Origin: Mesorhizobium sp. DCY119
GTDB taxonomy: Bacteria; Pseudomonadota; Alphaproteobacteria; Rhizobiales; Rhizobiaceae
NCBI RefSeq assembly: GCF_003590645.1
Contig: NZ_CP031834.1
Coordinates: 744,001 to 808,000, forward strand
Direction of reading: 5' to 3'
DNA: 64,000 nt
Shown here: positions 45,372-50,263 of the stretch, one piece after another
Position numbering within the stretch: position 1 is the stretch's first letter
Layout of the letters: each line of letters starts with the position of its first letter
Notes under the pieces: model-generated
Database searches by the model: none
Told to the model about the DNA's origin: nothing
What the model saw: only the letters and a program-made list of their open reading frames with translations
Made by a program: the position numbers and the translations under genes

Positions 45372-46301
45372 ATGCAAACTAGAGCGTTGAAAATCGGAAC
45401 TCGCGGCAGTCCGCTGGCGCTGGCGCAAGCCGTGGAAACGCGCGCGCGGCTGGTTGCGGCGCACAGCCTTCCCGAAGACGCCTTCGAGATCGTGCCGCTT
45501 TCGACCAGCGGCGACCGCATCCAGGACCGGCCGCTTTCGGAAGTGGGCGGCAAGGGGCTTTTCACCAAGGAACTCGAGGATGCGCTGTATGACGGGCGCA
45601 TCGACATCGCCGTGCATTCCTCGAAAGACATGGCGACCGTGCTGCCGGAAGGGCTCGAGGTCTCCACCTTCCTGCCGCGCGAAGACCCGCGCGACGCCTT
45701 CATCGGCAAGCTGGCGCCGTCGATTGCAGAGTTGCCGCACGGCGCGACCGTCGGCTCGTCATCGCTGCGGCGGCAGGCGCTGATCCGGCGCATGCGGCCC
45801 GACCTGAAGGTGGTGATGTTTCGCGGCAATGTGCAGACGCGGCTGCGCAAGCTGGAAGAAGGCATTGCAGCCGGCACCATCCTCGCCAATGCCGGGCTGC
45901 GTCGTCTCGGGCTGGAAAGCGTCATCACCGATCTGATGCCGCTCGAAAAATTTCCGCCGGCTCCCGGCCAAGGTGCGATCGGCATCGAGCACCGCTCCAG
46001 CGATAGCGAGGTGCGCGATCTGCTCGCCGCCATTCACGATGCGCCGACGGGTCATGCGCTGGCCTGCGAGCGGGCCTATCTCGCCGCGCTTGACGGCTCG
46101 TGCCGCACGCCGATTGCCGGTCATGCCGTGATCGAGGGCGATCATCTGTCGTTCAGCGGCGTCATCCTTTCGCCGGATGGAACCGAGGCGCATGAGGTGC
46201 GGGGCGAGGGCAAGGCGACCGATGCGGCGCAAATCGGCCGCGCGGCGGGCGAAGACGTTCGTGCACGCGCCGGAACGCGCTTTTTCGAGGGCTGGAGCTG
46301 A
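45372..46301 (+). CDS. hemC: Hydroxymethylbilane synthase (porphobilinogen deaminase)
   Basis: HemC joins four porphobilinogens in haem and cobalamin synthesis. The 309-residue protein has [30 protein letters not shown] and RGNVQTRL, and the dipyrromethane-cofactor Cys in LDGSCRTPI. hemD starts directly after the stop. The start is divergent from tsaD. Confidence 0.96.
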
Positions 46302-47023
46302 ATGCGGCCCCGCGTGCTGGTGACACGGCCGGAACCCGGCGCGTCGGCCACCGCACGCCGGCTTGAAGAAGTGGGGTTTTCGCCTGTTATTATGCCGCTA
46401 TCGGAAACGCTGGCGCTGCCGGTCGATGTGTCTGCGATCCCGCACGACATGGATGCAGTTGTCGTCACCAGCGCCAACGCGATACGCCATGCTTCAGACG
46501 ATCTGATTGCATCTCTGGCAGGCCGGCGCTTGTTCGCGGTTGGCAGGAAAACGGCGAAGGCCGCGCGGGAAGCCGGTTTTGCCAGTGTCATTGAAGGTTC
46601 CGGCGACGCGGTGGGCCTTGCGGACAAGATCGTGGCCGAACTGCCGGCGGGTTCCAGAATCCTGTATTTGACCGGGCGAGTCCGGCTCGACCATTTCGAA
46701 CGCAGCGTCGCCGAATCGGGATTGCGCATTTTTGTGACGGAGACCTACGACACACGCAGGATCGACTATCCGGAGGAAGCCGTCGCCTCGTTGCTGGCGG
46801 GGGTCAAATCGACGCGGTTCTGCTCTATTCGGCCAAGGCCGCGGAAGCGTTGTCCAGCCTCGCCGGGCAACCCGGGATGCATTCCCTTTTCGCGACAGCG
46901 CGCTATTTTTGTCTGTCCGACCGTGTTGCAGCTTCCCTGAACGCGGCGGAAAAGGACCGGATTTCGATAGCGGCCGAGCCGACAGAGGATGCATTGTTGT
47001 CGCTGCTGAAGGCCGACCGCTGA
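46302..47023 (+). pseudogene. hemD: Uroporphyrinogen-III synthase with a -1 frameshift
   Basis: The gene starts MRPRVLVTRPEPGA and codes normally up to about residue 166 (EEAVASLLAG). There the G run 46799-46803 has five G; with six, the frame continues as GQIDAVLLYSAKAAEALS to LLSLLKADR and stops at 47021-47023, giving about 240 residues, the normal HemD size. As written, the frame ends at 46940 with 46 unrelated residues. Uroporphyrinogen-III synthase is needed for haem, so a sequencing or assembly error in the homopolymer is most likely; a true mutation or programmed shift is the alternative. It lies between hemC and the mitofilin-like gene. Confidence 0.85.
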
Positions 47024-47133: not shown

Positions 47134-48576
47134 ATGGTCAAGACGCCGAAGACCCGGCATTCGAAGACGCATCGGGAACCGGTGACGATCGAGCTGGAGC
47201 CGGGCGCCGTTTCGCGCATCAAGGAGGCGGAAGCGCAGGCAGCCGCAGCTCAGGAGACCAGCGCAGCACAGGCCGAAACGCCGAAAGCGGAAGCAACTCA
47301 ATCCGGCGGGCAGAATTTCACCATGGTCGACACGACTGCCGAGGCCCCGGCCAGTTCCGCATTGGGACCCGAGCAGGATCAGGCCGAGGCCAAGCCGGCG
47401 CGCGAGGGCTTCGATTATGATTTTTCGGCGCAGGAGCCGAAGTCGGACGAGGCCGGCAAGAGCGACGTGAAGGAAGAGACTTCGCGGCCTGCGCAGCCGG
47501 AAAAACCGGTCTACACCCAGCCTGAGCAGCGCCGCAGCGGGTTTCCGCCGCTGGCCGCCGGCATCGTCGGCGGGTTGATCGCGCTGGCGGGTGCCGGCGC
47601 GCTGCAATATGCCGGGCTGCTGCCCTCGCCCGGCTCCGATGGTTCTGCGGTGGGCTCGCTGCAATCCGAGATAACGCAGGTTCGCCAGGAGATCGCCTCG
47701 CTGAAGGACAATGCCGGCGGGCCGGATGTCGAACTAACCGGCCGCGTCGATGCGCTGACCCAATCGGTCAATCAGGCCAAGACCGATCTTGCCAATCTGC
47801 AGCAGGCCGCACCCGCGACCGGCGGGGACGATAGCGCCGTTCAGGCGCTCGATGGCCGGATCAAGGAACTTGAGACGTCGATCGCTTCGCTGCGCGAGCA
47901 GGGAAGTGGACAGGCGGCGGCAAGCGACCTGACGGCCATAGGCGAGCGCGTGAGCGGCGTCGAGACGCTGGCCAGGACCGCCAGCGAGGCGGTGACGGCA
48001 AGCGATGGCCGGCTCTCTGCGGTGGAGCAGAAGGTGACGGACCTTTCCGGCAAGGTCGAGGCGCAGGCGGGACAGCCGAAGGTGGCGCTGGCGATCGCGG
48101 CGACCGCGTTGAAGGCGGCGCTTGATCGTGGCGCGCCGTTCCAGGCCGAGCTCGAGACGTTCGCCGCGATCTCGCCCGATGCGCCGGAAGTCGCAGGCCT
48201 GCGTCCGTTTGCCGAAAAGGGCGTGCCGTCGACTGCCGAAATCACCGGTGAGACCGAGGCTGCCGTGAAGGCGATGCTCGCCGTCGCCAAGCCGGTCGAC
48301 GAGCAGGCGAGTTTCGTCAGCCGTTTGATGAGCAGCGCGGAAGCCCTGGTTTCGGTGCGGCCGGTCGGCCCGGTCGAAGGCACGGGCGTTCCGGAAACGG
48401 TGGCGCGCATGGAATTCGCGCTGAAGTCCGGCGAACTGGACAAGGCGCTTGCCGAGTATGACACTTTGCCGGAAGCCGCCAAGGCGGCTGGCAGCGCGTT
48501 TGCCGAAAAGCTGAGGGCGCGGGTGGAAGCACAGAAACTGGTCGATCAGGCGGTTGCCGGCGCGATGAAGGCGTGA
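47134..48576 (+). CDS. Mitofilin-like inner-membrane protein (COG4223)
   Basis: A 480-residue protein with a charged, Ala/Glu/Pro-rich cytoplasmic N-terminus, one membrane helix (about 137-160, LAAGIVGGLIALAGAGALQ), a long periplasmic coiled-coil (VGSLQSEITQVRQEIASL to about 330) and a C-terminal mitofilin-type helical domain. Alphaproteobacterial members are related to mitochondrial Mic60 and shape membranes. It sits between hemD and hemY as in other alphaproteobacteria. The ATG at 47134 has GGAG eight bases upstream. Confidence 0.9.
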   Translation: MVKTPKTRHSKTHREPVTIELEPGAVSRIKEAEAQAAAAQETSAAQAETPKAEATQSGGQNFTMVDTTAEAPASSALGPEQDQAEAKPAREGFDYDFSAQEPKSDEAGKSDVKEETSRPAQPEKPVYTQPEQRRSGFPPLAAGIVGGLIALAGAGALQYAGLLPSPGSDGSAVGSLQSEITQVRQEIASLKDNAGGPDVELTGRVDALTQSVNQAKTDLANLQQAAPATGGDDSAVQALDGRIKELETSIASLREQGSGQAAASDLTAIGERVSGVETLARTASEAVTASDGRLSAVEQKVTDLSGKVEAQAGQPKVALAIAATALKAALDRGAPFQAELETFAAISPDAPEVAGLRPFAEKGVPSTAEITGETEAAVKAMLAVAKPVDEQASFVSRLMSSAEALVSVRPVGPVEGTGVPETVARMEFALKSGELDKALAEYDTLPEAAKAAGSAFAEKLRARVEAQKLVDQAVAGAMKA

Positions 48577-48592
48577 GGACAGGAACAGACCG

Positions 48593-50263
48593 ATGATCCG
48601 TATCCTCTTTTTCCTCGTTGTCGTTTTCGCGCTGGGCCTGGGCTTTGCCTGGCTCGCCGACCGCCCCGGCGACATGATCGTCACCTTCAACGGCTACCAG
48701 TATGGCGTGAGCCTGATGGTGGCGGCTGTCGCGGTGACGGCGATCGTCGCGGCGGTGATGATCCTGTGGTGGCTGACCAAGTCGATCTGGAACAGCCCCT
48801 ATACGATCGCACGCTATTTTCGCGTGCGCCGCCGGGATCGCGGTTACCAGGCGCTGTCGACCGGCATGATCGCGGCGGGTGCCGGCGACGGCGCGCTGGC
48901 GCGCAAGATGAACAAGCAGGCAGCCAAGCTGATCCGCTCCGACCAGGAGCCGTTGATCCATCTGCTGGACGCGCAGACCTCGCTGCTCGAGGGCGATCAT
49001 GAGGCAGCGCGCGGCAAGTTCGAGGCGATGCTCGACGATCCCGAGATGCGGTTGCTCGGCCTGCGCGGGCTCTATCTCGAGGCCGAGCGCCTCGGCGACA
49101 AGGCGGTGGCGCGGCACTATGCCGGACGGGCTGCCGACATCGCGCCGCAGCTCACCTGGGCGGCGGATTCGACCATCGAGGAGAAGGTCGAGCGCGGCGA
49201 CTGGGACGATGCCCTGAAGCTTGTCGATGCGCAGAAGTCGACGCGGCGGGTCGAGCCGGCGGATGCCAATCGCCGTCGCTCCGTTCTTCTGACGGCCAAG
49301 GCGATGTCGATCCTCGACACGGACCTAGCCGGTGCAAAGGCTGCGGCAATCGAGGCCAACCGCCTGCGGCCCGATTTCGCGCCGGCAGCGCTCGTTGCAG
49401 CCAAGGTGCTGTTCCGGCAGGACGACATCCGCAAGGGTTCGAAGATGCTGGAAACCGCCTGGAAGGCTGAGCCGCATCCGGAAATCGCCGAGCTTTACGT
49501 TCATGCCCGTCCGGGCGATGCGGTGCTCGACCGGCTGACGCGGGCGAAGAAACTGCAATCGCTGAAGCAGAACCATCCTGAATCATCGCTCGCCGTGGCG
49601 CGTGCGGCCCTCGATGCCGGCGAATACAGGCTGGCGCGCGAGGAAGCGGAAGCTGCGATCCGCATGCAGCCGCGCGAGGGCGCTTATCTGGTGCTTGCCG
49701 ATATCGAGGAAGCCGAGACAGGCGACCAGGGCAAGGTGCGTCAGCTTCTGTCGAAAGCGGTGCGCGCGCCGCGCGATCCTGCCTGGGTGGCGGACGGTTT
49801 TGTCTCGGAGCATTGGGCGCCGGCCTCGCCGGTCACCGGCAGGCTAGACGCTTTCGAATGGCGCGTGCCGATGGAACGGCTTGGCCAGATGATCGAGCAG
49901 GATGAGCCGTCTTCGGCGCGGCCGTCGATCGCCGCCCCCGAAATGCCGGTCTCTGACCTGGTGGAAGACGAAGATGTCGTCGATGTAGTGCCGGAGCCGG
50001 TGGAACGCGCGGATGTCTCCGCGAGCAGTGCTCCGGTGGATACAAAGCCGAAAGCTGAGAAAAAGGCCAAACCGGCTGTGGTGCATGACGAGAAGAGCGC
50101 CGCAGCTGATTTGGACAAGGTGCCTTCCGCTGCCATAATTGCGCCTGACGTCGACGTCGTGCCGGAGCCAGACGAAGAGCAACTGCCGCGCTTGCCGGAC
50201 GATCCCGGTGTCGAGCCGGACGAGACCGCGGAACAAACCCAGCGCCGTTTCCGTTTATTCTGA
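48593..50263 (+). CDS. hemY: Haem biosynthesis protein HemY (TPR)
   Basis: A 556-residue membrane protein. The N-terminus has two membrane helices (about 3-25 and 43-65) and the HemY domain (SPYTIARYFRVRRRDRGYQALSTG, shown by its core RVRRRDRGYQAL). TPR-type helices follow up to about 410, and an acidic Pro/Glu-rich tail ends the protein. It is the proteobacterial HemY of unknown exact role in porphyrin synthesis, not the oxidase HemY of Bacillus. It closes hemC-hemD-mitofilin-hemY. Confidence 0.93.
   Translation: MIRILFFLVVVFALGLGFAWLADRPGDMIVTFNGYQYGVSLMVAAVAVTAIVAAVMILWWLTKSIWNSPYTIARYFRVRRRDRGYQALSTGMIAAGAGDGALARKMNKQAAKLIRSDQEPLIHLLDAQTSLLEGDHEAARGKFEAMLDDPEMRLLGLRGLYLEAERLGDKAVARHYAGRAADIAPQLTWAADSTIEEKVERGDWDDALKLVDAQKSTRRVEPADANRRRSVLLTAKAMSILDTDLAGAKAAAIEANRLRPDFAPAALVAAKVLFRQDDIRKGSKMLETAWKAEPHPEIAELYVHARPGDAVLDRLTRAKKLQSLKQNHPESSLAVARAALDAGEYRLAREEAEAAIRMQPREGAYLVLADIEEAETGDQGKVRQLLSKAVRAPRDPAWVADGFVSEHWAPASPVTGRLDAFEWRVPMERLGQMIEQDEPSSARPSIAAPEMPVSDLVEDEDVVDVVPEPVERADVSASSAPVDTKPKAEKKAKPAVVHDEKSAAADLDKVPSAAIIAPDVDVVPEPDEEQLPRLPDDPGVEPDETAEQTQRRFRLF

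Follow-up and report, generated by a model that had tools for sequence, protein, structure and literature searches.

A one-base loss in a G run splits hemD of Mesorhizobium sp. DCY119, most probably through a homopolymer undercall

The hemD gene of Mesorhizobium sp. DCY119, which occupies positions 46302-47023 on the forward strand of the window (the whole 64,000-nucleotide stretch of DNA analyzed here), is split over two reading frames, with a shift at about codon 167 that is apparent both from the reading of the open reading frames (ORFs) and from profile matches. We consider it very probable that this frameshift is a homopolymer undercall introduced in sequencing or assembly and that the gene is ordinary and intact in the organism. 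The G run of the true, intact hemD would have been called one base short, and the deposited sequence would thereby have lost its frame. The step that we infer is that the missing G is an error rather than a mutation; an assembly error appears the most likely origin because other genes of the assembly are broken alike and the copy of a close relative is intact. The features concerned are as follows.

45372 to 46301, forward strand: hemC, hydroxymethylbilane synthase, intact, 309 aa (TIGR00212, 346 bits over residues 6-298, cut-off 164)
46302 to 46802, forward strand: first part of hemD, about codons 1-167, in the frame of the ATG (NF006621 positions 2-167, 185 bits; PF02602 positions 2-163)
46799 to 46803, forward strand: GGGGG run, one base short with respect to the intact frame (one-base gap against the same-genus hemD; sequence)
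46802 to 47023, forward strand: second part of hemD, about codons 168-240, in the -1 frame up to the stop (NF006621 positions 168-238, 63.5 bits; PF02602 positions 167-230; 67 of 71 residues identical to the same-genus copy)
46803 to 46940, forward strand: out-of-frame tail of the ORF, 45 unrelated residues followed by TGA (ORF and translation)

As it stands, the hemD ORF runs from the ATG at 46302 to the TGA at 46938-46940 and encodes 212 aa, residues 1-167 of which are HemD-like, while the remaining part of HemD sits in the -1 frame, which is open as far as the stop at 47023. The site of the frame change is the stretch of five G at bases 46799-46803. The initial annotation had described a frame that is normal to about residue 166 and changes at this run, as the ORF reading and the profile matches bear out, and had proposed that one added G would restore a continuous HemD-like frame to 47023, in agreement with the -1 frame carrying the end of the model and stopping at that position. 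In particular, NF006621, the alphaproteobacterial uroporphyrinogen-III synthase model (240 positions), is matched over positions 2-167 by the N-terminal part (185 bits) and over positions 168-238 by the C-terminal part (63.5 bits), with nothing absent between the two pieces, and Pfam HEM4 (PF02602) is matched over positions 2-163 and 167-230, respectively. Neither model finds a full-length match in a single frame, the split falling at model position 167/168; when frame is disregarded, all parts of the domain are present and in order (model positions 2-167 followed by 168-238). Judging from the NF006621 and HEM4 matches, hemD has lost only its frame. The locus thus resembles known HemD (NF006621/PRK09189; PF02602) in that its two halves match neighboring parts of the model in the right order, and in its location directly 3' of hemC, and differs from it in being one base short at the junction and in encoding, in the given sequence, only about 70% of the protein. 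A search of solved structures returned no match.

The end of hemC at 46301 abuts the start of hemD at 46302, and the region is collinear with the corresponding contig of the single other same-genus genome compared, hereafter the sister. Both hemC and hemY had initially been described as intact flanking genes. This holds for hemC, and hemY, encoding a HemY_N/TPR protein at 48593-50263, is open, but it is not the direct neighbor of hemD, since a 480-aa protein (47134-48576) intervenes. The latter matches no NCBIfam model and reaches the cut-off of no Pfam family; from its position, it may be the mitofilin-like protein usual in Rhizobiales.

Comparison with related strains, which had been suggested as a check on the initial annotation, places the defect in hemD at a single base. 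The sister gene is intact and encodes 240 aa, with 84% identity in the N-terminal part (138 of 164 residues ahead of the break). At the DNA level, a whole-gene alignment yields 89% identity and a single one-base gap, at the G-run site, where the sister reads GCAGGCGGT, without the long run, and the window reads GCGGGGGT. A split hemD that is collinear with a same-genus genome save for a single gap is far beyond chance. Moreover, the loci of 30 relatives, the sister being counted among them, were read, and each has both HemD parts in one frame. Past the break, the shifted frame retains 67 of 71 residues identical to the sister, and 9 of 13 substitutions fall at third codon positions. The second half of hemD is therefore free of decay, with a substitution pattern as expected for a gene still in use; in the organism, the base would thus still be present, unless its loss was very recent.

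A search of the whole 4.84-Mb single-contig genome with the HEM4 profile matches only the two hemD pieces, ruling out the second hemD elsewhere in the genome that the initial annotation had left open. The same result bears on the proposal that hemD is a real pseudogene whose function has been taken over by another uroporphyrinogen-III synthase encoded elsewhere, for which we found no supporting evidence and which we regard as extremely improbable: the profile search recovers hemD in 60 of 61 genomes, mostly at one place each, and, on the strength of these sequence matches, the proposal is largely refuted, as only a non-homologous enzyme would be expected to escape the profile search. Loss of the haem pathway as a whole can be rejected, given that hemE and the uroporphyrinogen-III methyltransferase gene cobA (two matches above the family cut-off), whose enzymes use the product of HemD, and hemH (ferrochelatase), likewise downstream of HemD, are all present and open; HemD is therefore still required. 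As a separate observation, a CysG (siroheme-synthase-like) protein outside the window (contig positions 325846-326265) has a methyltransferase domain aligned to no more than about 140 of the 238 positions of the model, and a TGA close to its end; besides this partial protein, complete methyltransferases are found elsewhere in the genome.

In order to place the hemD frameshift in the context of the assembly, about 0.62 Mb of the genome was aligned to syntenic stretches of the sister and mid-gene frame changes were sought in genes with good coding scores, the comparison covering about 562 genes and about 0.56 Mb of coding sequence, or roughly one eighth of the genome. This assembly shows three clear losses of one base in mid-gene position (hemD, htpX and the gene of a substrate-binding protein), all of them in or beside G/C runs. 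In htpX, which encodes a zinc metalloprotease and lies outside the window at about contig position 840052, one base is missing beside a GGGGG run, although the loss can alternatively be read as one A gone from the AAA adjoining that run; the sister encodes a typical, intact HtpX of 337 aa. The third gene, assigned to an ABC-type substrate-binding protein from its sequence alone, is also outside the window (contig position about 2346809); its frame is broken by the loss of a single base within eight consecutive C, while the sister copy is intact (496 aa). A fourth candidate, at 735137, corresponds to a diverged 3' end and was left out of the count. In the same set of about 562 genes the sister presents no single-base losses at G/C runs, its frame differences being confined to gene ends that have diverged, in ORFs that are small or score poorly; three losses against none is a small count. 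A reference-free scan for frame switches in 20 scattered stretches picked up hemD and htpX in the control region, but its noise, with about as many candidates in the sister, precluded a count of further cases.

The traits of a homopolymer error are thus found here: a one-base indel at a homopolymer breaks the conserved frame of hemD, and like breaks occur in other conserved genes of the assembly (htpX and the substrate-binding protein gene) and are absent in the sister. In a 0.51-Mb aligned region, no G/C run of 7 occurs in this assembly against four in the sister, but long G/C runs are not generally scarce, since those of length 5 (243 in this assembly, 225 in the sister) and 6 (23 in each) are not depleted. 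Runs of 5-6 being about equally frequent in both genomes, undercalling, if it is the cause, would therefore be sparse rather than general. Short indels in homopolymers have been reported to make up most long-read errors, and one study found deletions to be most frequent following runs of 4-5 (PMC12007338). Like such errors, the losses seen here remove one base in or beside a G/C run and interrupt conserved genes of a single-contig assembly; they differ in their number, about three in 0.56 Mb of coding sequence, which is well below that of unpolished drafts. So sparse a pattern would be compatible with a long-read assembly that retained some homopolymer errors after polishing. The approximately 20 frameshifted genes per genome extrapolated from these figures are no proof of error by themselves, because a short-read assembly may carry about 25 (PMC12007338).

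The initial annotation had also considered a programmed shift. Recoding, by -1 ribosomal frameshifting or by transcriptional slippage at the G run, would allow full-length HemD to be made from the deposited sequence without any correction, and it is compatible with a -1 frame that is open to the normal HemD end and with the ability of GGG to re-pair after a one-base slip. Nevertheless, no conserved slippery heptamer is found at the frame change: the sister and the other relatives read need no shift, and G GGG GTC re-pairs poorly in the A site, the zero-frame GGG GTC making a poor X XXY YYZ heptamer in which the GTC-reading tRNA must re-pair with GGT. Nor is there a stable stimulatory structure downstream, the RNA fold being unremarkable (z -1.3, with 20 of 200 shuffles folding as well), and a run of five G is short for polymerase slippage. 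The same mechanism would further be required for htpX and the transporter gene. Accordingly, we attach next to no credence to recoding in hemD, and it seems hardly conceivable that the five G are real and that full-length HemD is made by slippage at a lineage-specific run, with similar slippage in the other two genes.

A genuine mutation deserves more weight, but still seems unlikely. It would consist of a very recent one-base slippage deletion in the hemD G run, either fixed in the sequenced culture, which would then be auxotrophic for haem or grow slowly, or present in a mixture with intact cells. Replication slippage also acts at homopolymers, and hemD frameshift mutants are viable, as illustrated by the haem-auxotrophic small colony variant hemD Q107fs of Staphylococcus aureus (PMC5478891). 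That variant shares with the present case a frameshift within hemD, but it belongs to selected mutants with a known phenotype, whereas here there is a genome sequence only, and one with other frameshifts of the same kind. Against a real deletion stand the single copy of the gene, the intact enzymes downstream of HemD and the lack of decay in its second half; two further unrelated conserved genes would also need to have mutated, and a mutator strain is not indicated, mutS and mutL being intact and open. If real, the deletion would define a viable bacterium devoid of its sole uroporphyrinogen-III synthase.

Hence, an undercall is favored because this is the only hemD of the genome, the downstream enzymes are open, the C-terminal part is conserved and the gene lies in one frame in all 30 relatives read, including the sister. 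The likelihood of a base-calling or assembly error, already advanced in the initial annotation, gains support from the sole copy and the in-frame relatives as well as from the losses in htpX and the substrate-binding protein gene. If this reading is correct, the consequences concern annotation alone: hemD, a key haem gene, would be recorded in error as a pseudogene, and the G/C runs in other genes of this assembly should be checked before any of these genes is considered to have lost its function.
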